Position numbers and translations under genes: made by a program
In this document: piece by piece, positions 44,383 to 57,198 of the stretch
Numbering within the stretch: the stretch's first letter is position 1
How the letters are laid out: every line of letters starts with the position of its first letter
Notes under the pieces: model-generated
Database searches by the model: none
What the model saw: the letters and a program-made list of their open reading frames with translations, nothing else
What the model was told of the DNA's origin: nothing
Assembly (NCBI RefSeq): GCF_014647155.1
Contig: NZ_BMOQ01000006.1
Location: 248,001 to 312,000 of the forward strand
Reading direction: 5' to 3'
DNA length: 64,000 bases
Source of the DNA: Halarchaeum nitratireducens
GTDB taxonomy: Archaea; Halobacteriota; Halobacteria; Halobacteriales; Halobacteriaceae

Positions 44383-45642
44383 TCAGAGGTGCTCCTCGAA
44401 GATGTCTGCCAACTCCTCTTGGACGAGTTCTCGCATTGCGTCGGCGCGGGCTTGGCGACGCGTCTGCTCGTCGAGGTAGTTGCGTTCCGACACCGACGCG
44501 TCCCGCGACCCCTGTGAGGCGGCGACGGCGGCGGTCCCCGCTTCGATGGTCGGGCGCTGTTGACGGTAGAGGCGGTACCACGTCCGCCGTCCCATCTTCG
44601 GGAGGGGACGCTCGCCGTCGATCGTGACGTCGGCGCGCTCGCCGAGGTCACGGAGCCAGCGCCGTGCTGTCTGCGTGGAGATCGGCTGCTCGATCGACTG
44701 ACCGGGGAGGAGGTAGCCGGTCCACTCCCCATCTTCGGCGAGCACGTCGATGCGTTCGGTGATGGCGTCGACACCGACGAGGATCTCGACCGTATTGCGC
44801 GTGCGGCGGGCGTTCTTGCGTTGGCCGGCCTCGAAGGCGATGTAGGGGACGTCGCCCTCACCGGGGTCGAGTTCGAGTTGGTCGACGTGCAACTCGCAGG
44901 CTTCGATGGGTCGGAGACCCCAGCCGGCGAGCGCCAGCAGCAGGAAGCGCTCCTCGTCGGTCGCGACGTCGAGGAGCGCGACAAGGTCGTTCCGAGAGAG
45001 GGCGGGATGGTCGTAGACGGGGTCTTCGTCCCAGCCGAAGCGATTCAGCAGACTCTCGGCGGGGTTGTAGAGGCCGCGTCCCATCTCGACGAGGAACGTG
45101 TACCAGTTTTTGACGGCGGAGACGTACTTCTTCTTCGAGGCGAGCGTCCCGAGCTCGTCGTCGAGGACGCGGAAGGTGTCCCGGACGCGGGCGATCTCGT
45201 CCGGCTTCTCGGTCTCGTCGAGGAGCGGCGAGAGCAGGTCACTCGTGTCGTTCACTTCCCGGTAGGTCGTGACGTACGTCTTCAGTCGGGAGCGACGCGG
45301 CCCCACCGTCGTCGGGGCGCGCCCGCGGTCGCGCTCAAGCTCCTCAAGGTAGTCCTCCAGGCCGTGCACCGTGGGCTCGTGGTCGATTCCCCACTCGTCG
45401 TTCTTCTCGGGGTTCGGCGGGAGTCCGACTTCGTCGTAGAACTCGCCCGGCGAGAGGTCGTAGTCGCGTCGCAGGCGTTCGACGAACCCCGAATAGTTGC
45501 CCTTCAGCCACGCGTAGGTCGGCGTCCCCCGGTCGGGGTCGATATCGACGTCCGGGTCGGCGCGGAGCGCGGGCGCGATCTCCGCCTCGTAGAACTGGGC
45601 GAAGTCGTCGAGGTCGTCGAAGCGGGCGTACGTCGCTTCCAT
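44383..45642 (-). CDS. Tyrosine recombinase/integrase
   Basis: A 419-residue site-specific recombinase. The core-binding domain occupies about residues 80-190; the catalytic domain has R244 in AGWGLRPIEACEL, then a GRRTWYR segment where the H-x-x-R box is expected, and the Tyr nucleophile Y389 in SERNYLDE. The H-x-x-R histidine is not evident, so activity is uncertain. The first 80 residues are an added N-terminal domain (TYAWLKGNYSGFVERLRRDYDLSPGEFYDEVGLPPNP). It is likely a chromosome-borne integrase or remnant of a mobile element. Confidence 0.85.
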   Translation of the reverse strand: MEATYARFDDLDDFAQFYEAEIAPALRADPDVDIDPDRGTPTYAWLKGNYSGFVERLRRDYDLSPGEFYDEVGLPPNPEKNDEWGIDHEPTVHGLEDYLEELERDRGRAPTTVGPRRSRLKTYVTTYREVNDTSDLLSPLLDETEKPDEIARVRDTFRVLDDELGTLASKKKYVSAVKNWYTFLVEMGRGLYNPAESLLNRFGWDEDPVYDHPALSRNDLVALLDVATDEERFLLLALAGWGLRPIEACELHVDQLELDPGEGDVPYIAFEAGQRKNARRTRNTVEILVGVDAITERIDVLAEDGEWTGYLLPGQSIEQPISTQTARRWLRDLGERADVTIDGERPLPKMGRRTWYRLYRQQRPTIEAGTAAVAASQGSRDASVSERNYLDEQTRRQARADAMRELVQEELADIFEEHL

Positions 45643-45953: not shown

Positions 45954-46913
45954 TCAGTTAGCGACGCTCGTCTCCTCCAGTTCCTGTACGTACTCACGCA
46001 AGCGCTCGTCGTCGAGAACGTCGAGGAGGAGCTCGTCGTCCAGACGCTCCGCCCACCGCCGTTTAGCGCGCTCCTCCCGTCGTTGGGCTTCCTCGCGATC
46101 CATGTACGACGACTTCATCCGTTCGACGTCCTGCTCCTGGATCTCCCTGAGGTGTTCCGGGTCGATGTCGTGGTCTTCGGGCACACGGTGGGTTCGGAAC
46201 CGTTCGTTCCACGCCTCCTCATCGTCCCACTCGTGATCCACGGTCGACCGGGGCCAGTTCCAAGACCGGTAGGCCGCGACCTTCTCCCAGTACCCCTGAT
46301 CGCGGCGAACGTCGACGACGACAGCCATTCCGACTTCCATCCCGTTCCCCGCCGCAGTGAGCGCCTGCGTCCCTCGACCCACTTGTGCGCCGGCAACGTA
46401 CAGCCCGTCGACAGGTGCCCGTCCCTCCTCGTCAACGTAGTCCAGTGATACGTGTTCGTGCACGTCCCCGTCTCCGTGCTGGTGGGACTCGAACATCTCG
46501 TCCTCGTCGTCCAGTCCCTCGAGGTAGTCGCGGTCGTACGTCGTCGCCGCGACGACGCGGTCCGTATCGACGGTCCGACCCTCCTGTGTCTCGACGCGGA
46601 ACCCACCCGTTTCGCGCTCGTCGACCGAGAGAACCATATCCGAGACGACGGCGCCGCCCGCTTCCTCGACGTGTTCATGTATCAACTCGTAGAACGTCTG
46701 GATGTCGACGCCCCACGGGAACCCGAGGTAGTTCTCTAGGTATGCACACTGGCTGAGTGCCGACCTCCCGCGGTCGAACACGACGGTATCGAGGCCGTAC
46801 TGGGCGGTGTATAGGGCAGCGGCGGATCCCGCCGGACCGCCACCGACGACGACGACGTCGACGTTGTCGTTACTCATACTCGTTTCACCCTCCTCATTAT
46901 TCTCTCCTGCCAT
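45954..46913 (-). CDS. Thioredoxin-reductase-like FAD protein, iron-regulated
   Basis: A 319-residue flavoprotein with an FAD Rossmann motif VVVVGGGPAGSAAALYTAQYGLDTVVFD (starting near residue 18) and the closing GLYVAGAQVGRGTQALTAAGNGMEVGMAVV near 168-198. The NADPH domain and the CxxC of thioredoxin reductases are missing; one Cys is at SQCAYLEN. The last 110 residues are an acidic, helical extension (HEWDDEEAWNERFR ...). Starts at ATG 46913 or 46877. An iron-box palindrome overlaps its start, and the eight binding proteins lie upstream, so reduction of ferric siderophores is a possible role. Confidence 0.75.
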   Translation of the reverse strand: MAGENNEEGETSMSNDNVDVVVVGGGPAGSAAALYTAQYGLDTVVFDRGRSALSQCAYLENYLGFPWGVDIQTFYELIHEHVEEAGGAVVSDMVLSVDERETGGFRVETQEGRTVDTDRVVAATTYDRDYLEGLDDEDEMFESHQHGDGDVHEHVSLDYVDEEGRAPVDGLYVAGAQVGRGTQALTAAGNGMEVGMAVVVDVRRDQGYWEKVAAYRSWNWPRSTVDHEWDDEEAWNERFRTHRVPEDHDIDPEHLREIQEQDVERMKSSYMDREEAQRREERAKRRWAERLDDELLLDVLDDERLREYVQELEETSVAN

Positions 46914-46915
46914 AC

Positions 46916-46933
46916 TTTTAGGCTAGCCTAAAA
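46916..46933 (-). promoter_or_regulatory. Iron-box-like palindrome (DtxR/Idr type)
   Basis: A perfect 18-bp palindrome, ttttaggc-ta-gcctaaaa. It lies directly in front of ATG 46913, with a TATA-like stretch (ttattattttt on the minus strand, 46931-46942) overlapping its far end. It resembles the TTAGG-N-CCTAA motif of DtxR-family metal repressors. The placement over the transcription start fits repression by iron. Confidence 0.75.
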
Positions 46934-47119
46934 AATAATAAGCGTATCGGTTCAGGTGACCAAATCACGTGAGTGTCGCGTTAGGCGGCGGGGCGCCCGA
47001 ACGTCCTCTTCTCGAATCGGAATCTCGAACACGAGACGCACGAAGCGCGATACCGTCCGGGTCTATCACCCGTCGAAACCCGTCTCCGCGACACGGGCTC
47101 CGGCGACGGCACGCGACGA

Positions 47120-48298
47120 TTACCGCTCCGTGATCACGCTCGCGAGTCTATCGCGGTCGAATATTTGCTCATCCGCAAACCGGTCCGGATAGTAGAGGCC
47201 GGCGTACCGTTCGAGCATGAACAGATTGTGGAGCGGGCCGCAGAAGATCGGCCCGCCACGGAAGATCTGATCGTTCTGCACCGCGGATAGCTGGCCGCCG
47301 ACCTCGTGCTCGCGGATGTGTGATACGATCGACTCCTCGAACGCCTCACGGGTTCGCGCTTTGCCGCGATACCGAAGCAGGAGCGAGTCAGGATCGATTT
47401 CGAGAAGCGTCTCGTAGTCAATACTACCGCTATCGCTGGTCGAGAATCCGCTGACGTCGGTGTCAGCGAACGCATCGGCGATGCCCAGCGTGTGGAAGTG
47501 TTCCTTGTTCGCGCCCTCCCCCGAGAGGCGGTACGGGTAGAACTCCTCGGGGTCGTCTGGGGCATAGAGGAGCAGTGCGTCGGGCCGCTGGTCCGCCGCC
47601 GGGAGTTCCGCTTCGATAGTCGCGACCGTCTCCTCGTGTATCGATCGGATGGCCTCGAACCGCTCGCGCTCCCGGACCACCGCCGCGACCTTCTCGAACG
47701 CCTCGTACAGCGTGTAGTATCGGTAGTCGTGCCACGGGTCGGTCCGTCGGAAGATGACGTTCCCGAGGAAGGGCGCAACTCCCTCCGCGATCTCCTCGAC
47801 GTCTGCGTTCGACCAGCTGTCGAGAATCCGCGTCAGCCAGTGTGGGTCCATGAGGTGAAAGTCCGCGTCCATCTCGTAGAAGACCTCCTTCGAAACACCG
47901 CCGTTCTTGCTTGCGAGCTGAGTCAGGCTGCTCGAATCGATCGACACGCCGTCGAGTTCGTCGTAGTGGGTCGTTAGGTACTGGCGGCGGGTTCGGATGG
48001 ACTCGACCGCATCGCCGTGACCCAGCGCGACCAGCATGTCGATGTACGTGGGATCACACCCCGCGATCGTCTCGGGGACGCGATCGAACGCGACGGTACC
48101 GGTCGGTTCCATGGTGACCGCGTACGCCCCGTCCGATGTGGCGTTCGTCGCGGGCTCAGTCGCCGTGCGCCTCGGATCCGACCCGTGGTCCACACAGCCG
48201 GCCAGAAGCGACCCAGCGACGACTGCACTTCCGTACTTCATGTACTCTCGTCGAGTCGATGCTTCTGCCGCACTCGCGTTGGTGTTCTCGTTGCTCAT
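47120..48298 (-). CDS. Siderophore-type ABC solute-binding lipoprotein (8th of array)
   Basis: A 392-residue Tat lipoprotein: twin Arg in TRREYMKYGSAVVAGS then the lipobox LLAGC (residue about 33). The ligand-binding core follows the FepB pattern: VAFDRVPETIAGCDPTYIDMLVALGHGDAVESI, then YEMDADFHLMDP. The region SLTQLASKNGG and APFLGN is closest to the fourth array member (51975-53201). It is the last gene of the operon, 1 nt after the seventh. This shortest member has lost some residues between about 170 and 180. It would bind an iron chelate outside the membrane. Confidence 0.87.
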   Translation of the reverse strand: MSNENTNASAAEASTRREYMKYGSAVVAGSLLAGCVDHGSDPRRTATEPATNATSDGAYAVTMEPTGTVAFDRVPETIAGCDPTYIDMLVALGHGDAVESIRTRRQYLTTHYDELDGVSIDSSSLTQLASKNGGVSKEVFYEMDADFHLMDPHWLTRILDSWSNADVEEIAEGVAPFLGNVIFRRTDPWHDYRYYTLYEAFEKVAAVVRERERFEAIRSIHEETVATIEAELPAADQRPDALLLYAPDDPEEFYPYRLSGEGANKEHFHTLGIADAFADTDVSGFSTSDSGSIDYETLLEIDPDSLLLRYRGKARTREAFEESIVSHIREHEVGGQLSAVQNDQIFRGGPIFCGPLHNLFMLERYAGLYYPDRFADEQIFDRDRLASVITER

Positions 48299-48299
48299 T

Positions 48300-49547
48300 T
48301 TAGATTTCCCCGCTAACGATGTCGACGACGGCTTGTCGGTCGAACAGCTGTTCACTCTCCGAAATCTCGGGATACAGCTTACCGGAGCCGTATCCCGGCC
48401 ACTCTCCGAACTGATCGGGGTAGAGCTGCTTGGCCGTCATCTCCAGATTGAAGAGGCTCATGATCGGACCCTGCATCCCGTACCCGGACGGGTAGTAGCG
48501 CTCGTCTCGAAGCGCCGGAATGTCGTCCGCGAGTGGGTTGTCGAGGACCGCTTCGCGACCCTGAATGAACGTCTCGCCGAGGGCGACCCCCCAATACCGA
48601 AGCATCACGTCCGGTTGTGCCTCGACGAGCGCCTCGAAGTCGTAGGATCCGTCGGCCTCCGGACCGCCCTCGATCGTCTCGAACGCGTTCTTGATACCCA
48701 TCGGACGAACATGCGCCCAGATGTAGCCGTCCTGCGTGAAGTCGTACGGCCAGAATGTGCCACCGCTGTAGGCGACGATAGCGACTGACGGCCGTTCGGA
48801 TTCCGGCGGGAGGTTCGCCTGAATCCGAGCGACGAGGTCATCACGGATCGATTTGAACGCCTGGTAGCGTTCCTCTTCCCGGAGAACGGCGGCGATCTTT
48901 TCGATGTACTCCCAGAGCGTGTAGTACTCGTAGCCATCGCGGTAGGCGTCGGGCGGATCGGCGTTTGTTCGGCTGTAGTAGTTCCCGAACCACGGCCCGA
49001 CGTCCTCCGCAATCGCATCGATGTCCTCCTCGCTCCACCCGAACGATGAACTTCGCAGGAGCGCGGGATCGAGGAAGTGAACGTCGCTATCGAGCTCGTA
49101 GAACGCTTCCATATCCAACGCCCCCGGGTCGTCAGCCGACGTGACTCGGCCGAGGTCTTCCCACTCGAAGGTGACCGATTCGAGGCGGTCGTAGTAGTAG
49201 GAGACCGTGTTGCCGAACAGCTGTTTGTCGTATCCGATGGCGTTGATCGACTCACCGTGGCCGAGCGCGACGGCAGTACCCGCCGACAGCGGGTAGTACG
49301 TCAGGAAATCGGATGGAACGCTGTCGAACTCCACGTCCCCGACCGGCGATAGCGTAACCGCGTAGGACCCGGTTGCCGTCGTGGCGGTGTCGGTACTCGC
49401 GTCGCTCGTCGCGGCTGTGTTAGTCGGTTCGTTACTCGTTGTACCGACACACCCGGCGAGCAGTCCCCCACCGACGATCGCGCCGCCGCCCTTGAGGACG
49501 TCTCTGCGCGTCGACACCTCCTCCGTCGTCGTATCACGTGAGGTCAT
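48300..49547 (-). CDS. Siderophore-type ABC solute-binding lipoprotein (7th of array)
   Basis: A 415-residue protein with Tat motif TRRDVLKGGGAIVGG and lipobox LLAGC, a Thr/Ser/Ala-rich linker, and the binding domain. It carries YELDSDVHFLDP and SSSFGWSEEDIDAIAEDVGPWFGNYYSR, the second being shared closely with the fifth gene (50755-51972). ATG 49547 overlaps the previous gene by 4 nt (ATGA). No permease or ATPase is adjacent. The ligand is likely an iron chelate. Confidence 0.87.
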   Translation of the reverse strand: MTSRDTTTEEVSTRRDVLKGGGAIVGGGLLAGCVGTTSNEPTNTAATSDASTDTATTATGSYAVTLSPVGDVEFDSVPSDFLTYYPLSAGTAVALGHGESINAIGYDKQLFGNTVSYYYDRLESVTFEWEDLGRVTSADDPGALDMEAFYELDSDVHFLDPALLRSSSFGWSEEDIDAIAEDVGPWFGNYYSRTNADPPDAYRDGYEYYTLWEYIEKIAAVLREEERYQAFKSIRDDLVARIQANLPPESERPSVAIVAYSGGTFWPYDFTQDGYIWAHVRPMGIKNAFETIEGGPEADGSYDFEALVEAQPDVMLRYWGVALGETFIQGREAVLDNPLADDIPALRDERYYPSGYGMQGPIMSLFNLEMTAKQLYPDQFGEWPGYGSGKLYPEISESEQLFDRQAVVDIVSGEI

Positions 49548-50752
49548 GCTTCGAACTCCCCGTTGATGATGTCCGCGACGCGTCGTCGATCGAAGAGCTG
49601 CTCGTCCGCCGGGAACTCGGGGTACGGACCGCCAGTATAGTCGGGCCACGCGCCGAACCGGTCGGGGTAGAGCTCCTTGGCGACCATCTCCAGCTGGAAG
49701 AAGTTCATAATCGGGCCGCCGTACCGGGCGCTAAGGGGATAGACGCGGTTGTTCTTCACCGCGGAAATCTCGCTGGCGACCGGGTCGTCGCGGAGGTTCT
49801 GCTTCTGCGCCCGCCAATCGTTCGCCCGAGCGAACGCGTTCTCGATGAGGATGACCTCCGGGTCGGCCTCGACGAGCGCCTCCAAGCCGATCGTATCGCT
49901 CTCCGGGATGTCCGCGAGCACGTCGTCGACGCCGAACGGACGCGTGTGCGAACGGATGAACCCGGGACCGTCCATGTGGAAGACCCAGATCGAGTCCAGG
50001 TCCGGAGACATCATCACACGGGCTGTTCGCGGACGCTCGTCGTTCGACGGAACGTTCGCCGCGATCGTCGCGTCGAGGTCGGCTTTGACTTCCGAGAGCG
50101 CGTCGTACCGCGCCCGCTCCTGAAACACCTCCGCGACCTGCTCGAATATCTCCCAGAGCGTGTAGTACTGGTACTGGTCCGCCCAGTCCGCCGGCGGTTC
50201 GCTGTGGTTCCGACTCAGCGCGTTTCCGAACCACGGCGCGACCCCCGTTCGGACTTCCTCGACGTCCGCGGTATCCCACGCGTCCATCGTTGAGACGTAC
50301 GCCGGATCGGCCAGGTGAACGTCGCTGTCGAGCTCGTAGACGATCTCTTTGTCCGGATTCCACGAGTTGTAGAGGTCCGCCCAATCGACAGACACCCCGT
50401 CGAGACGTTCGAGGATCTTGTCGTAGTTGCCCTCGAAGTTGGCGGGACTGTACATCGCGTTGAGCGCGTCGCCGTGACCGAGTGCGACGACCATATCGGT
50501 GTGATGGACGAGGATCGTGAACACGCTCTCCGGCGGCTGGTCGAACTCGACGGTGCCTGCCGGCGCCAGCGTCACCGAGTATGGTTCGTCCTCCTGCGTC
50601 GTCGTGGTCGTCGAATCAGGCGCTGGGGTCGTCGTCGACTCGCCGGCGCTGCCGGTACACCCGGCGAGCAAGCCGCCACCCGCGACCGCGCCGCCGTACG
50701 TCAGGTAGTCACGCCGCGTTGGTGCCTCGTATCGAGTGGTGTCGTGGTTCAT
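49544..50752 (-). CDS. Siderophore-type ABC solute-binding lipoprotein (6th of array)
   Basis: A 402-residue protein with Tat motif TRRDYLTYGGAVAGGG and lipobox LLAGC. Key segments are FTILVHHTDMVVALGHGDAL, ERLDGVSVDWADLYNSWNPDKEIVYELDSDVHLADP and APWFGNALSRNH. The HHxDM pattern links it to the first gene (55743-56960). The stop of the fifth gene lies 2 nt before its ATG. It is probably an extracytoplasmic iron-chelate receptor. Confidence 0.87.
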   Translation of the reverse strand: MNHDTTRYEAPTRRDYLTYGGAVAGGGLLAGCTGSAGESTTTPAPDSTTTTTQEDEPYSVTLAPAGTVEFDQPPESVFTILVHHTDMVVALGHGDALNAMYSPANFEGNYDKILERLDGVSVDWADLYNSWNPDKEIVYELDSDVHLADPAYVSTMDAWDTADVEEVRTGVAPWFGNALSRNHSEPPADWADQYQYYTLWEIFEQVAEVFQERARYDALSEVKADLDATIAANVPSNDERPRTARVMMSPDLDSIWVFHMDGPGFIRSHTRPFGVDDVLADIPESDTIGLEALVEADPEVILIENAFARANDWRAQKQNLRDDPVASEISAVKNNRVYPLSARYGGPIMNFFQLEMVAKELYPDRFGAWPDYTGGPYPEFPADEQLFDRRRVADIINGEFEA

Positions 50753-50754
50753 TG

Positions 50755-51972
50755 TTAGATGTCTCCGTTGATGATGTCCGCCACGCGCTGGCGGTCGAAC
50801 AACTGCTCCCCCTCGGGAATGTCCGGGTACGGCTCACCGTCGACGTAGCCCGGCCACTCGCCGAACGCGTCGGGAAAGAGCTGTTTCGCCGTCATCTCCA
50901 GCTGAAAGAGGTTCATGATCGGCCCCTGCCCGCCGACTCCAGAGGCGTAGACGCGGTCGTTTCGAACGGCGGTCAACTCTTGACCAACGGGGTGGGATTC
51001 CAGTGCTGCCTGCATCTTTGCCATGTTGGTGTCAGGGGTGATTCCCCAGAACTGGAGGATCACATCAGGGTCGAGATCCAGCATCCCTTCGAAATCGAGC
51101 CAACCGGAGTTCTCCTCGAGGCCACCCGCCTCGGCGAACACGTCTGTGGCCCCGAACGGTCGGGTGAACGAACGCGCGTACCCGGGATCGTTGAGGAAGT
51201 ACACGCGGAACTCCTCCTCGTTGTGCATGGTGAGCGCGACGCTCGGTCGCTCCCCCGGTAGCTTCGAGGCGATCTCACTCATCAAATCGGCGTGGACCGC
51301 CGCGAGCGCGTCGTAGCGCGCCCCCTCTCGAAGCACCTGCGCGACCTTCTCGACGATCTCCCAGAGCTCGTAGTACTCGTACGACCCCGCGTAGGCGTCC
51401 GGCGGGGAGCCGTTGAGCCTGCTGTAGTAATTTCCGAACCACGGACCGACGTTTTCGATGATCTCGTCCACGTCCGCCTGACTCCACCCGAACGACGAAC
51501 TCTGAGCCCACGTCGGATCCATGAAATGGACGTCCGAGTCGAGTTCGTAGAGGATCTCCTTGTCGAGGCCGTCGTTGTAGATCTGCGGGAGCGACTCCCA
51601 GTCGGGCGAGACGACGTCGAGGGAGTCGAGGTAGAAGTCGAGGATGTCGCCGTACCACGAGAAGCCGAGGGAGTTGACGGCGTCGCCGTGGCCGAGCGCG
51701 ACCGCGGCGTCCGCGTACAGTTGACTGTACACCATGGCGCTCTCCGGAACGCTTTCGAAAGAGACCTCGCCCACCGGCGACATCGTTACCGAGTACGATT
51801 CACCGTCGGGCGTCTCTGTTTGCCCCCGCGTCAATTCTCCGTTCGACGGTGCGTCATTTTGACGCCCGAAACAGCCCGCGAGGAGTCCGCCACCGACTAC
51901 CGCCCCGCCGTACGTCACGTACTCCCTACGTGTCGGTGCCTCCGTCGTACCCGTCTCGTCGTTGTTACTCAT
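50755..51972 (-). CDS. Siderophore-type ABC solute-binding lipoprotein (5th of array)
   Basis: A 405-residue protein: Tat motif TRREYVTYGGAVVGGG with lipobox LLAGC, followed by the binding domain. YADAAVALGHGDAVNSLGF, YELDSDVHFMDP and QSSSFGWSQADVDEI are visible; the last resembles the seventh gene. The ATG is preceded by the fourth gene's stop at 2 nt. The middle has a Trp/Tyr-rich SYEYYELWEIVEKVAQVL shared with all members. Confidence 0.88.
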   Translation of the reverse strand: MSNNDETGTTEAPTRREYVTYGGAVVGGGLLAGCFGRQNDAPSNGELTRGQTETPDGESYSVTMSPVGEVSFESVPESAMVYSQLYADAAVALGHGDAVNSLGFSWYGDILDFYLDSLDVVSPDWESLPQIYNDGLDKEILYELDSDVHFMDPTWAQSSSFGWSQADVDEIIENVGPWFGNYYSRLNGSPPDAYAGSYEYYELWEIVEKVAQVLREGARYDALAAVHADLMSEIASKLPGERPSVALTMHNEEEFRVYFLNDPGYARSFTRPFGATDVFAEAGGLEENSGWLDFEGMLDLDPDVILQFWGITPDTNMAKMQAALESHPVGQELTAVRNDRVYASGVGGQGPIMNLFQLEMTAKQLFPDAFGEWPGYVDGEPYPDIPEGEQLFDRQRVADIINGDI

Positions 51973-51974
51973 GT

Positions 51975-53201
51975 TTAAATGCCTCCGTTGATGACGTTCG
52001 CAACCCGCTGTCGGTCAAATAACTGCTCGCTCTCGGCGATCTCGGGATACGATCCACCCGTGTAGGTCGGCCAGTCGCCGAAGATATCGGGATAGAGTTG
52101 TTTCGCGGTCATCTCTAGCTGGAAGAGGTTCATGACTGGCCCCTGAAGTGGGTTCCCGCCAGCGTAGACGCAGCCGTTCCGAATGGCCGAGAGCTGTTGG
52201 CCGACCGCGTGGTTCGACAGTTCCTTGCGGAGGGACTCGACGTCGTAGTAGGAGTATCCGTAGCGATGCAGAATGACGTCCGGGTCGATTTCGACCATCG
52301 TCTCGAAATCGTAGGACGACTCGTAGCTGATGTCACCTCCGGCGAACGCGTCCGTCGCGCCCAACGGCCGAGTGTGTGCGTTCGCGAACCCGGGCGTGTT
52401 GATTTTCGCGGGGTAAAACGTCTCATCCATGTAGATCACCGACCCGACGGTCGGCCGCTCACCCTCCGGGGGATGGTTTGACCGGATCGTTGCGAGCAGA
52501 TCGTCGTGTATTGACGCGAGCGCTTGGTATCGCTGCTGTGCCCGGAAGACCTTCGCTACCTTCTCCGAGATTTCCCAGAGTGTGTAGTACTCGTAGTCAT
52601 CTCGGTAGGGTTTGGGTGGTTCGGCGTTCCGGCGGCTATAGTTGTTCCCGAAGAACGGTGCGATGTTCTCCGTGATCTCCTCGACGTCGTCGACGCTCCA
52701 GCCGTCAAAGGAAGCGACGAGCGAGGGATCGACGAGGTGGAGGTCGGAGTCCAATTCGTAAAACACCTCCATATCGACGGTGAGATTCCCCGATCCAGTG
52801 TTGAGCTGCGTGAGGCTCTCGTAATCGAAGGAGACACCATCGAGGTGCGCGTAGAACGCATCGAGCGCGCTCCCGACATCCGTGCTGAATCCGAGGGAGT
52901 TCACCGCGTCCCCGTAGCCGTATGCGACGGCCATGTCCGCGTACAGGAGGTTGTACACCATTACGCTCGTCGGCGGCTCTTCGAGCTTGACGGTTCCCGC
53001 CGGTGCCATCGTCACCGAATACCTCTCGCCCTCCTGCGTCGACGTGTCTGTCTCGTTCTCATCTCTTTCGTTCGGTGTCGCCCCGGACTCGGACTGGCCT
53101 GCACATCCGGCGAGCAGGCCGCCGCCGATGACCGCGCCGCCGTACTTCAGGTAGTCGCGCCGCGTCGGTGCCGCTGTCGTGTTCGCGTCGTCGTCGGTCA
53201 T
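51975..53201 (-). CDS. Siderophore-type ABC solute-binding lipoprotein (4th of array)
   Basis: A 408-residue protein with Tat motif TRRDYLKYGGAVIGGG and lipobox LLAGC. It has LLYADMAVAYGYGDAVNSLGF, YELDSDLHLVDP and APFFGNNYSRRN; SLTQLNTGSGN relates it to the eighth gene. It ends DRQRVANVINGGI. The stop-start distance to the neighbours is 2 nt on both sides. Like its paralogs it would be exported folded by Tat and held by a lipid. Confidence 0.88.
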   Translation of the reverse strand: MTDDDANTTAAPTRRDYLKYGGAVIGGGLLAGCAGQSESGATPNERDENETDTSTQEGERYSVTMAPAGTVKLEEPPTSVMVYNLLYADMAVAYGYGDAVNSLGFSTDVGSALDAFYAHLDGVSFDYESLTQLNTGSGNLTVDMEVFYELDSDLHLVDPSLVASFDGWSVDDVEEITENIAPFFGNNYSRRNAEPPKPYRDDYEYYTLWEISEKVAKVFRAQQRYQALASIHDDLLATIRSNHPPEGERPTVGSVIYMDETFYPAKINTPGFANAHTRPLGATDAFAGGDISYESSYDFETMVEIDPDVILHRYGYSYYDVESLRKELSNHAVGQQLSAIRNGCVYAGGNPLQGPVMNLFQLEMTAKQLYPDIFGDWPTYTGGSYPEIAESEQLFDRQRVANVINGGI

Positions 53202-53203
53202 CG

Positions 53204-54502
53204 TCAGATGTCACCGTTGGTGATGTTCGCGACCCGCTCGTGATCGAACAACTGCTCGTCGGGACCGAACGCCGGATAGGAGTCGCCGTTCTCGTAGTCA
53301 GGCCACGCACCGAACTGCTCGGGGCAGAGCTGCTTGGCGGTCATCTCGAGCTGGAAGAGGTTCATCAGTGGCCCCTGCCAGCGCGTCCCCTGCACGTACA
53401 CCCGGTCGTTCTGCACGGCGGCCAACTCGCTTCCCACGGGGTCGTCTCGCAGATTCTGCTCCATCTGTTCGAAATCGACCTCTTCCGTGACCGTCCAGAG
53501 TGTGAGAATCGCGTCCGGGTCGGCGTCCAGCAGCGCCTCCGTGTCGAGTCGCTTGAACGGACCCTCCAACTCCGCACCGCCGAACACGTCGATCGCGCCG
53601 AGCGGCCGGGTGTGGGCGTTCCAGTAGCCGGGCGCGTTCAGTCGGAGCCGGTAGATGTCGGCCAGGTCCTCCCTGAGGGAAAGGTACGCGACGGTCGGCC
53701 GTTCCGACTCCGGCGGCAGCCTGTCTTCGATGGTCCCGAGCAGGTCGTCGTGGACGGACGCGAGCGCTTCGTACCGTTCTCGCTCCCCGTACAGCGTCGC
53801 GACGCGATCGAACAACTCCCACAGCGAGTAGTACTCGTACCCGTCGGCCCACTCCTCCGGCGGCGTGGCGTGGTAGTTGCTGTAGTAGTTGCCGAGCCAC
53901 GGCCCGACGTTGTTCGACACTTCGTCGATGTCGCTTCGGTTCCAATTGTCCTCCGTCGTTACCCACGCGGGGTCCACGAGGTGGAGATCGCTGTCGAGTT
54001 CGTACAGCTGCTCCTTCGCGAAGCCGTACTCCCCCGCCTTGTCCGCCCACTCGATCTCGAAGTCGTCGAATCCGGCGGTGAAGTACTCGAGACCCGCGAC
54101 GGTCCCGTCCCACCAGAGGTAGTTGATGGTCTCACCCCGACCGAGCGCACTGGCCATGTCCGGGAACCACGGGAAGTGGGTGAACACGTTCGTCGGGGGT
54201 TCCTCCAGCGAGACCGTGCCGACGGGCGATAGGTCGACCGTGTAATCAGACTCCGTCGTCGAGGTCGTCTCGCTCCCCTGCTCGGTCGCCTGAGTCGTCT
54301 CCGCTGTCTGCGTCGATTCACCCGTCGGTTGGCTGGAACATCCCGCGAACAGTCCCCCACCTACGACCGCGCCGCCGTATTTCACGTACTCCCGTCGAGT
54401 CCGTTCGATTCGCCCACTTCCTCGACGACGTCCCGCTCGCTGGCGCTCGCTCGAAGCACGCCGCATCGGCGTTTCAGTCGTCTTCTCGTCGTCGTCACCC
54501 AC
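53204..54502 (-). CDS. Siderophore-type ABC solute-binding lipoprotein (3rd of array)
   Basis: At 432 residues the longest member. It has an extra basic N-terminal stretch (RRASSERQRAGRRRGSGRIER) before the Tat motif TRREYVKYGGAVVGGG and lipobox LFAGC. Then follow FTHFPWFPDMASALGRGETI, YELDSDLHLVDP and GPWLGNYYSN. It begins with a GTG at 54502, placing it 2 nt from the previous stop, as in the rest of the array. A later start within the basic stretch cannot be excluded. Confidence 0.85.
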   Translation of the reverse strand: MGDDDEKTTETPMRRASSERQRAGRRRGSGRIERTRREYVKYGGAVVGGGLFAGCSSQPTGESTQTAETTQATEQGSETTSTTESDYTVDLSPVGTVSLEEPPTNVFTHFPWFPDMASALGRGETINYLWWDGTVAGLEYFTAGFDDFEIEWADKAGEYGFAKEQLYELDSDLHLVDPAWVTTEDNWNRSDIDEVSNNVGPWLGNYYSNYHATPPEEWADGYEYYSLWELFDRVATLYGERERYEALASVHDDLLGTIEDRLPPESERPTVAYLSLREDLADIYRLRLNAPGYWNAHTRPLGAIDVFGGAELEGPFKRLDTEALLDADPDAILTLWTVTEEVDFEQMEQNLRDDPVGSELAAVQNDRVYVQGTRWQGPLMNLFQLEMTAKQLCPEQFGAWPDYENGDSYPAFGPDEQLFDHERVANITNGDI

Positions 54503-54504
54503 GG

Positions 54505-55740
54505 TCAGATCTCTCCGTTAACGATGTCCGCGACCCGCTCGCGGTCGAATAGCTGCTCACTCTCGGGAATCTCGGGGTAGTCTTCACCGTCGACGTACCC
54601 GGGCCACTCGCCGAGTTGTTCGGGGTAGAGCTGCTTGGCAGTCATCTCCGTCTGGAAGAGGTTCACTATTGGTCCCTGGTATCTGACGCCCTGTGCGTAG
54701 ATGCGGTCGTTCTTCGCGGCCGAAATCGTCTGCCCGACCGGGTCGTCCCGGAACCGCTCTTTCGTCTCCGCGATACTGTAGCTTGAGGAGAGTCGGAACA
54801 GCGCGAGGACGACGTCCGGGTCCGCTTCTGCCATCGCCTCCATATCGACCTGGGCGTTCCGCTCGAAGTCCATGTCGGCGAATGCATCGACCGCACCGAG
54901 CGGACGGGTGTTTGCGGCGAGGAACCCGGGCGCGTTCAGATGGAAGACGCCGACGTGGTCTTCGACTGGGAAGGTGAGCGCGACGGTCGGTTGCTCGTCC
55001 TTCGGCGGGCGTTTTTCTTCCACCGTCGAAAGCAGCTGCTGGCGTTCCTCGTAGAGGGCCTGATAGTGCTCTTTCGCCTGAAAAACTTCGGCCACCTTCT
55101 CGAAGATCTCCCACAACGAGTAGTACTGGTACCCGTCTGCCCACTGCGTCGGTGGCGTCGAATGCGTGTTGCTGTAGTAGTTCCCGAACCACGGCGCGAT
55201 CTGTTCGCGGATCTCTTCGATGTCCGCCTGATCGAGAGAGTCCAACGTCGTGGCGTAGGCCGGGTCGGTCAAGTGAACGTCGCTGTCGAGCTCGTAGAAT
55301 CCCTCCTTCCCGAGCCCCCACGTGTCTTCGAGGTTCTTCCAGTCGAGCGAGACGCCGTCCAGCCGCTCGTAGAAGTGGTTCAGTAACGTGCCGTGGTACT
55401 CGGGGAAGTAGATTGAGTTGATGGCGTCCGCTTTCCCGGCCGCGATCGCCATGTCAGCCGTGTTCGGCAGCCCGGTGTACACGGCCTCTGGAACAGAGTC
55501 GAAGCTGACCTCGCCCATCGGCGCCATCGCCACCGAGTAAGACTGCCCGCTCTGCGAACTCGTTTCGGATGTCGTCGTGGATTCTGTCTCGTCCGCCGTC
55601 GTTGCCCCTGAGGTCGTTGAACTGGGGTCACCGCCGGAACAGCCAGCGAGCAGCCCCCCGCCGATGACCGCCCCACCGTACGTCACATAATCTCGTCGCG
55701 TCGGTGCTTCTGTTGTATTCGTGTCGGTGTTGTCACTCAT
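54505..55740 (-). CDS. Siderophore-type ABC solute-binding lipoprotein (2nd of array)
   Basis: A 411-residue protein with Tat motif TRRDYVTYGGAVIGGG and lipobox LLAGC, then a Thr/Ser-rich linker. The binding domain shows YTGLPNTADMAIAAGKADAINSI, YELDSDVHLTDP and APWFGNYYSNTHSTPPTQWADGYQYYSLWEIFEKVAEVF. The WADGYxYYSLWE stretch is shared with the third gene. The ATG at 55740 leaves a 2-nt gap to the first gene's stop. Confidence 0.88.
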   Translation of the reverse strand: MSDNTDTNTTEAPTRRDYVTYGGAVIGGGLLAGCSGGDPSSTTSGATTADETESTTTSETSSQSGQSYSVAMAPMGEVSFDSVPEAVYTGLPNTADMAIAAGKADAINSIYFPEYHGTLLNHFYERLDGVSLDWKNLEDTWGLGKEGFYELDSDVHLTDPAYATTLDSLDQADIEEIREQIAPWFGNYYSNTHSTPPTQWADGYQYYSLWEIFEKVAEVFQAKEHYQALYEERQQLLSTVEEKRPPKDEQPTVALTFPVEDHVGVFHLNAPGFLAANTRPLGAVDAFADMDFERNAQVDMEAMAEADPDVVLALFRLSSSYSIAETKERFRDDPVGQTISAAKNDRIYAQGVRYQGPIVNLFQTEMTAKQLYPEQLGEWPGYVDGEDYPEIPESEQLFDRERVADIVNGEI

Positions 55741-55742
55741 AT

Positions 55743-56960
55743 TCAGAACTCTCCCTTGATGATGTCCGCGACGCGTTGGTGGTCGAACAGCTGGTCCTCC
55801 TTGGAAAAGTCGGGGTATGCTCCACCGTCGTACGCCGGCCATTCGCCGAACTGCTCGGGATAGAGCTCCTTGGCGCCCATCTCGAGCTGGAAGAGGTTCA
55901 TAATGGGGCCACCGAACCGAACGCCGAGTGGATAGATGCGGTCGTTCTTGACGGCCGGTATCTGTTGGGCGACCGAGTCGGTACGGAGTTCGGTCTTGAC
56001 CTGTGTCCAGTTCGCCCCCGGTGAGACGCCACCCGTTCGCAGAATGACGTCCGGGTCGGCTTCGACGAGTGCTTCGAGGTCGATTTGCGCGCCGACCCGC
56101 ATATCGGCGAACGCGTCTTCGACACCCAGGGCCCGCGTGTGCGCCCGATAGAATCCCGGGCCGTTCATACTGTACGCCCAGATTCCCTCACTCACACCGG
56201 ACGGGGAGATGAGCACCCGTCCCGTTCGGGGTCGTTCGTCCGCGGGCGGGAGGTTCGACCGAATCGTCGATAGCAGGTCCTCGTGGACCGCTGCGAGGGC
56301 TTGATATCGCTCTTCCTCCTGGAAGACCCGGGCGACGCGCTCGAAGATCTCCCAGAGGTCGTAGTACTCGTAGTCATCCGCCCATTCAGCGGGGGGCTCA
56401 CCGTGCTGGCCACTGAACGAATTTCCGAACCACGGTGCGACGTTCTCGTGGACTTCGTCGATGTCTGCGGTAGTCCAGCTGTCCATCGTCGCGACCTTCG
56501 CAGGATCGGCGAGATGAACGTCGCTGTCCAGTTCGTAGAGTTGCTCCTTTCCCGGATTCCACGATCCGTACAGGTCCGCCCACTGGACGGAAACGCCATC
56601 GAGCCCGTTCAGGAACCGATTGTAGAGTCCCTCGAACAGGCTGGGATTGAAGATGGCGTTAACGTCATCACCGTGCCCGAGCGCGAGCGCCATGTCGGCG
56701 TGATGAGCGAGGATGGTGAATGCCGCCTGCGGCGATTCAGTGAACTCGACGTCACCCATCGGCGCCATCGTCACCGAGTACGACGAATCGCTCGGAGTCG
56801 TCGCCTCTGTGGTCGTGTCTCCACCCACAGTCGTGGTCGTCTCGTCCATCCCGCCGCCGCCCGAACAGCCGGCGAGCAGGCCGCCGCCGACGACCGCCCC
56901 GCCGTACGTCACGTACTCCCTCCGCGTCGGTGCTTCGTGTTCCGCGTCGTCGTCTGCCAT
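55743..56960 (-). CDS. Siderophore-type ABC solute-binding lipoprotein (1st of array)
   Basis: The promoter-proximal gene, 405 residues. It starts MADDDAEHEAPTRREYVTYGGA, with Tat RR and lipobox LLAGC at about residue 32. Family core: FTILAHHADMALALGHGDDV, WNPGKEQLYELDSDVHLADP, APWFGNSFS. The HHxDM segment links it to the sixth gene. The ATG follows an iron-box palindrome by 4 nt with a TATA box behind it, so the entire eight-gene operon is predicted to be induced by low iron. Confidence 0.88.
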   Translation of the reverse strand: MADDDAEHEAPTRREYVTYGGAVVGGGLLAGCSGGGGMDETTTTVGGDTTTEATTPSDSSYSVTMAPMGDVEFTESPQAAFTILAHHADMALALGHGDDVNAIFNPSLFEGLYNRFLNGLDGVSVQWADLYGSWNPGKEQLYELDSDVHLADPAKVATMDSWTTADIDEVHENVAPWFGNSFSGQHGEPPAEWADDYEYYDLWEIFERVARVFQEEERYQALAAVHEDLLSTIRSNLPPADERPRTGRVLISPSGVSEGIWAYSMNGPGFYRAHTRALGVEDAFADMRVGAQIDLEALVEADPDVILRTGGVSPGANWTQVKTELRTDSVAQQIPAVKNDRIYPLGVRFGGPIMNLFQLEMGAKELYPEQFGEWPAYDGGAYPDFSKEDQLFDHQRVADIIKGEF

Positions 56961-56964
56961 GCGT

Positions 56965-56980
56965 TTTAGGCTCGCCTAAA
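56965..56980 (-). promoter_or_regulatory. Iron-box-like palindrome of the binding-protein operon
   Basis: tttaggc-tc-gcctaaa is a 16-bp inverted repeat with 7-bp arms, the same sequence family as the box at 46916-46933. It lies between the ATG at 56960 and the TATA-like aaatatagt at 56983-56991. A weaker partial match, ttaggtcagccaaaa (57002-57016), lies upstream of the TATA box and may be a second site. Confidence 0.75.
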
Positions 56981-57198
56981 GAACTATATTTGCTTCGGTT
57001 CTTAGGTCAGCCAAAACCTACCTCGGCCGGTGGACTTCACTCGTCTCGAAGAGTCACTCTATCCGCCCTCCGAAGACGCTTACAGACCAGCTACTGCCAT
57101 CTCTCGTCGTGCCTACTGCGTCCGACGAATCCACCGTCGTCGCTGACGAGCGCCGTATCCGCGGCCCGACCCGTCGAGAGAGGACGGGCACCCACCCG

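Follow-up and report, generated by a model that had tools for sequence, protein, structure and literature searches.

Two DtxR-type palindromes before an FAD oxidoreductase gene and a run of eight siderophore-type binding-protein genes in Halarchaeum nitratireducens: probable operators of a genome-wide iron regulon

The 64,000-nucleotide stretch of Halarchaeum nitratireducens analysed here (contig NZ_BMOQ01000006.1, positions 248,001 to 312,000; henceforth the window) contains two palindromes of one type, each lying between a TATA-like stretch and the first codon of a gene. One precedes a gene for a flavin adenine dinucleotide (FAD)-binding oxidoreductase, the other a run of eight genes, W1 to W8, for binding proteins of the PF01497 family. 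An initial annotation had described both palindromes as iron boxes, and its sequences and coordinates are exact, as is its count of nine genes behind them: eight PF01497 genes (56960 to 47120) and one FAD-domain gene (46913-45954). The features are given below, with identities to proteins of G019, a genome of another genus. Families were assigned with Pfam, for W1 also with a structural model and for the FAD protein also with NCBIfam and the PDB; the two TATA-like elements and the operators nearest the genes were read from the sequence.

45954-46913, minus strand: FAD-binding oxidoreductase, 319 aa, with a thioredoxin-reductase-related FAD domain and a charged C-terminal extension
46916-46933, no strand assigned: predicted operator of the FAD oxidoreductase gene, a perfect 18-bp palindrome, TTTTAGGCTAGCCTAAAA
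46934-46941, minus strand: TATA-like element of the FAD gene promoter, TTATTATT on that strand
47120-48298, minus strand: W8, PF01497; 87% identical to a G019 protein
48300-49547, minus strand: W7, PF01497; its ATG overlaps the W6 stop
49544-50752, minus strand: W6, PF01497; 83% identical to a G019 protein
50755-51972, minus strand: W5, PF01497
51975-53201, minus strand: W4, PF01497
53204-54502, minus strand: W3, PF01497; 92% identical to a G019 protein
54505-55740, minus strand: W2, PF01497
55743-56960, minus strand: W1, lipoprotein of the twin-arginine translocation (TAT) type, PF01497 siderophore-type binding protein
56965-56980, no strand assigned: predicted proximal operator of the W1-W8 array, TTTAGGCTCGCCTAAA, a palindrome broken only at its two middle bases
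56984-56991, minus strand: TATA-like element of the array promoter
57002-57015, no strand assigned: weaker, predicted distal operator, TTTGGCTGACCTAA on the minus strand, exactly 36 bp upstream of the proximal core

Read on the minus strand, both promoters present the same order: a stretch resembling the transcription factor B (TFB) recognition element (BRE), a TATA-like stretch, the palindrome and the ATG (at 46913 and 56960). The 14-bp core lies 4 bp from the ATG at the 46916-46933 site and 5 bp from it at the 56965-56980 site, and the distance from TATA to ATG suggests that the messages from both promoters would be leaderless. Within the window, TTTAGGCNNGCCTAAA has two exact matches, and three when up to three mismatches are allowed (shuffle mean 0.36). 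The palindrome before the FAD gene is kept at the equivalent position in G019, with one mismatch in the core (TTAGTCTAGCCTAA).

Both cores match exactly the 14-bp sequence TTAGGNNNNCCTAA, which has been proposed as the consensus for the site of a single IdeR/DtxR dimer (PMC8464063; this and the other papers cited by accession are drawn on in excerpt). The classical 19-bp IdeR/DtxR site accommodates two dimers (PMC8464063), and at neither of the sites described here is there a second TTAGG/CCTAA pair shifted by 5 bp, such as would make up the four interleaved CCTAA repeats of the 19-bp site. Among the papers listed by a literature search for the 14-bp strings, all are plainly unrelated and none contains them, which says little. 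We propose that both palindromes are, with high probability, single-dimer operators of an iron-activated repressor of the DtxR family (FerR/Idr type), and that the genome has about twenty such operators, these two included.

The genome (3.14 Mb in 27 contigs) holds 22 TTAGGNNNNCCTAA sites, compared with one match to the reversed pattern used as control, and 12 exact TTAGGCNNGCCTAA sites. Seventeen of the 22 have a start codon within 9 bp (ATG or GTG, opening a coding-like frame of 100 codons or more), compared with 570 of 5000 positions drawn at random from the loci of the sites; scatter over random sites, which the initial annotation had named as evidence against its proposal, is therefore not what the genome presents. 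Its further view that such palindromes precede these two transcription units only is right for the window and wrong for the genome, where they make up 2 of 22 sites rather than a regulon of their own. Across the family, the exact 16-bp form occurs at 68 sites in 20 of 26 genomes (control 0).

The genes behind these operators are of iron type. Binding-protein genes follow sites in loci L026, L029, L031, L032, L033, L034 and L035, FecCD permeases and an ATP-binding cassette (ABC) ATPase in L029, L032 and L033, and FAD proteins in L031 and L032; a CARDB-CARDB-RND cluster (HAE3/RND permease) lies behind the site in L025, and a DUF7260 gene and then a DtxR-type gene behind that in L037. The DpsA gene begins 7 bp after an operator variant, TTAGGTAACCCTAA (L096:3653, G000:C2:441652), so that iron storage may share the regulon. 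A DoxX/DoxD-type protein is encoded behind the site in L027, its start not adjacent, and no gene can be assigned with confidence to the sites in L036 and L095. Of the 18 PF01497 proteins in the genome, the 16 of iron type are all encoded in apparent transcription units behind a TTAGGNNNNCCTAA operator; the other two are not, and no operator was found near their genes in about 3.6 kb of DNA each. Three of the four FecCD permeases likewise lie in apparent units behind an operator. Together with the match to the published single-dimer consensus, this gene content bears out the likeness to DtxR-family sites that the initial annotation had noted.

Some of these loci deserve a remark in their own right. 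A DUF7552/DUF7551 protein behind the operator of L030 (G000:C3:330305), with a look-alike recognized by eye in G007 (L064 13949), is perhaps a conserved member of the regulon. Behind an exact operator, L028:4572-6002 (G000:C2) encodes a secreted-looking protein of 476 aa that matches no Pfam or NCBIfam family, and a frame of equal length stands behind an operator in G005 (L071). The binding-protein gene behind an operator variant in L034 (G000:C2:150745-151404) is broken by one TGA, as a pseudogene or through a sequencing error. ParA-like ATPase genes, identified by eye, lie near siderophore-uptake genes in two genera (L032 2365-3270; L064 1996-2895), which suggests a plasmid or island context.

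A regulon of this composition has a counterpart in Haloferax volcanii, where fhu genes are described as preceded by a ferR signal and where, under iron starvation, five of 11 FhuD paralogues rise more than fourfold and the strongest induction of any protein is that of an RND permease (PMC11349517). The likeness is one of description, and we call these sites probable members of a haloarchaeal FerR/Idr-type iron regulon that is known in kind, with iron control as a prediction. That regulon is reportedly the subject of Leyn and Rodionov (2015) and of the Idr papers on Halobacterium and Haloferax.

Candidates for the repressor that would bind these sites are the three DtxR-type proteins of the genome, encoded at C5:93805, C5:97919 and C7:7095, which score 44-70 bits with PF01325 as translated (cut-off 26). 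The protein at C5:93805 carries a FeoA domain. Directly before its gene lies a different palindrome, TTAGACGCATCTAA (L038:5780-5793, G000:C5; gene L038:5806), which may be the operator of another metal repressor. The gene at C7:7095 is the next after the DUF7260 gene behind TTAGGACAGCCTAA, and a DtxR-type gene of G024 has an operator about 55 bp ahead of it. Genes near C5:97919 look, by eye, to be of suf and ferritin type. Orthologues of the C5:97919 protein at 72% or more are present in 22 of the 26 genomes (its own included), and the three g5 genomes, which have no exact 16-bp operator, hold relatives at 45% or less. G015 has the exact 16-bp operator and relatives at 44% or less, and G002, G017 and G023 have the orthologue and no exact operator; because co-occurrence across the 26 genomes is thus imperfect, C5:97919 is only hinted at as the regulator. 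We assign none of the names Idr, SirR and TroR to the three genes.

At the array promoter, the initial annotation had correctly seen a proximal DtxR-type site and had overlooked the distal one. Its iron-box interpretation fares in the same way overall: DtxR-type operators do stand over the starts of iron-uptake genes, while the two-site regulon falls away and the distal operator has to be added. Between the two array operators lie a BRE-like GCTTCGG and the TATA-like element. The related array promoter of G019 has the same operator pair (L063 13724/13760), and 257 of 391 haloarchaeal genomes have at least one pair of TTAGGNNNNCCTAA sites separated by 10-40 bp (control 0). Among the 75 pairs listed, which include many from closely related genomes, the spacing is 36 bp in 41, 35 bp in 13 and 34 bp in 8. 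Promoters with an operator next to the ATG have a mate at 34-36 bp (three mismatches or fewer) in 10 of 40 cases, compared with 13 of 8000 shuffles. Some of the 40 promoters are homologous to one another, a few of the frames are doubtful, and the presence of sites was part of the reason for selecting the loci. In the paired promoters displayed, the gap holds BRE- and TATA-like stretches, and we read the pair as a probable bracket around the binding site of TATA-binding protein (TBP) and TFB. Among the papers listed by a search on DtxR, the TATA box and haloarchaea, none has a title that points to paired DtxR operators, which is no proof of absence.

Downstream of this promoter, W1 to W8 are TAT-type lipoproteins, and all eight match Peripla_BP_2 (PF01497) at 35.5-49.6 bits (cut-off 27.5). 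Their genes are tightly packed, with junctions ranging from a 4-nt overlap to a 2-nt gap. A structural model of W1, built from the eight-row alignment (predicted local distance difference test score, pLDDT, 77.9), is closest to ferric-siderophore binding proteins, the top match being 3tny, which is YfiY with ferric schizokinen; ferric siderophores are the predicted ligands of the eight proteins.

The array does not look like a product of local copying. Tandem duplication in this lineage, an origin that would be compatible with the proposed regulon, would suit the head-to-tail order, the regular junctions and the conserved gene ends, but we regard it as unlikely. It is rejected by a tree built from 45 binding proteins of 12 genomes, which omits the L031 and L034 frames and one frame from L029: its starred branches require the array members to be placed in eight separate positions, no two of them as sisters. 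Pairwise identity among W1-W8 is 34-61%, whereas W3, W8 and W6 reach 92, 87 and 83% to G019, against a background of 82% for ValRS. The FAD protein is 92% identical to its G019 counterpart; in three genomes of the same genus, ValRS is 93-95% identical and FAD relatives reach 49% at best. W8 and the FAD gene form one block shared with G019 (2352 bp, 89.7% DNA identity), and in G019 this block lies apart from the array there, behind its own operator. Because its members are not local duplicates and several are closer to another genus than the background identity, the array appears to have been assembled, partly by transfer. These comparisons are most simply read as transfer between genera, after which the genes joined the array; loss in sister species is a possible alternative. 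Runs elsewhere seem shorter, with five in G019, four in G007 and three in G005 among the matches listed. Gene conversion at the gene ends was also considered from fourfold sites in the 28 pairs; W1-W4 is the most conspicuous pair (ends 22/26, middle 33/74), but most others are not outstanding, and gene conversion is not claimed.

The FAD protein resembles thioredoxin reductase in part. Its best Pfam and NCBIfam matches span residues 19-132 only, and its PDB match, which takes in most of the FAD domain (residues 19-204), is 2cvj, a 180-aa ‘thioredoxin reductase related protein’. Thioredoxin reductase proper, with FAD and NADPH domains and a CxxC, is rejected as its identity: the match is partial, the protein has no CxxC, and it scores 68.5 bits with TRX_reduct, far under the cut-off of 343.45. 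Relatives of the FAD protein adjoin binding-protein genes at four other loci of the genome. A single-sequence model was poor (pLDDT 40.7) and was not used. Just downstream of the FAD gene, a tyrosine-recombinase gene (PF00589; window 44383-45642) fits a mobile history of the region; ARAGORN found no tRNA genes in the window.

Repressors with sites downstream of the TATA box have been described that exclude RNA polymerase and let TBP and TFB stay bound, and MDR1 of Archaeoglobus has been named as the first metal-dependent case of that mechanism (PMC2995911). We propose that the operators described here could work in the same manner. When iron is plentiful, the operator between TATA box and start codon would be occupied by a metal-loaded dimer, which would bar RNA polymerase from TBP and TFB; when iron is scarce, the dimer would leave the operator. 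At the array promoter, the weaker operator 36 bp upstream would allow two dimers to bracket BRE and TATA, tightening repression. Derepression would then yield one polycistronic message for eight different ferric-siderophore-binding lipoproteins, which may draw on a small common set of FecCD permeases from other loci. The FAD protein, perhaps a reductase releasing the iron, would come from a second message.

Several observations weigh against this proposal. At two mismatches or fewer, the 14-bp motif is no commoner in the genome than its control (39 versus 56), so that weak sites are unsafe. Five of the 22 sites, among them the distal member of one pair, have no start within 9 bp; of the 17 start-adjacent sites, two are doubtful, the frame in L030 being probably a shadow and that in L037 starting with GTG. 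The FAD promoter has no mate operator, and iron control in Halarchaeum nitratireducens is itself predicted by comparison. Finally, each of the three DtxR candidates scores highest with an MntR model of NCBIfam, below its curated cut-off, which makes manganese possible from sequence alone. Operators answering mainly to manganese, before genes that take up metal complexes generally, nevertheless seem quite improbable to us: the genes behind them are of siderophore and iron-storage type, the FhuD paralogues of Haloferax respond to iron starvation (PMC11349517), and the gene of the best MntR-like candidate (L038:5806) is itself preceded by TTAGACGCATCTAA, so that manganese may have a motif of its own.

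It is only slightly easier to imagine that the sites serve an activator or a dual purpose, being occupied at low iron within a network of several DtxR paralogues. The presence of three DtxR-type genes would allow for this, as would the operator before DpsA, a gene that one might expect to be needed at high iron, and the title of a 2017 paper speaks of interlocking positive feedback loops and iron balance in archaea. The operators, however, lie downstream of TATA at 3-7 bp from the ATG, a position at which a protein on the DNA should obstruct the polymerase. To chance palindromes, or an unrelated shared promoter element, we give practically no credence. Palindromy by itself is common enough, with 15 perfect 7+2+7 palindromes of any sequence in the window, but the two operators alone among them have the TTTAGGCNNGCCTAAA sequence exactly, and it is this shared sequence, their position and their genome-wide recurrence, rather than palindromy, that set them beyond chance; the genome-wide counts, with zero or near-zero controls, the adjacency to start codons and the gene content all contradict an accidental origin.

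Repression by a DtxR-family protein at single-dimer operators remains our preferred reading. A more ambitious combination, which we put forward tentatively and hold to be somewhat short of probable, joins the two features of the array. Its promoter would be a standard haloarchaeal clamp of two operators, in which two DtxR-type dimers, set at a constant distance of 34-36 bp, flank BRE and TATA and thereby make repressor, TBP and TFB compete in a fixed frame; the genes behind it would be a cassette bank of eight siderophore receptors, recruited singly and partly across genera into one message and served by three permeases. If this is true, one iron signal opens the uptake of many foreign siderophores.

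Starting from two palindromes, the analysis yields a concrete regulon map of about twenty operators in one haloarchaeon. The regulon is of a known kind; the operator pair and the receptor bank are the two features worth testing. They raise the questions of whether a 36-bp operator pair across BRE/TATA acts as a single switch, and of whether the range of usable siderophores is widened by many divergent receptors in one long run that share few permeases.

Known systems share much with what we describe and differ at defined points. The DtxR/IdeR operators of actinobacteria (PMC8464063) have the same 14-bp TTAGGNNNNCCTAA core for one dimer; in their 19-bp operator TTAGGTTAGSCTAACCTAA, two dimers are accommodated on one site, whereas the second site described here, at promoters that have one, is a palindrome of its own, in most cases 34-36 bp off, across BRE/TATA. 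MDR1 of Archaeoglobus fulgidus (PMC2995911) offers a metal-dependent archaeal mode of repression downstream of TATA that fits the operator position here, although species and operators are others and binding here is a prediction. FhuD/YfiY/CeuE-type proteins have the PF01497 family and fold in common with the array proteins, YfiY with ferric schizokinen being the best PDB match, but the array consists of archaeal TAT-type lipoproteins in eight divergent copies within a single run. The closest parallel is the haloarchaeal FerR/Idr regulon of the DtxR family, as described in a citing paper (PMC11349517): it, too, has an operator before siderophore ABC transporter genes, many FhuD paralogues and DtxR-type regulators, and the Halarchaeum array differs from it in placing eight binding-protein genes in a run behind one paired operator.

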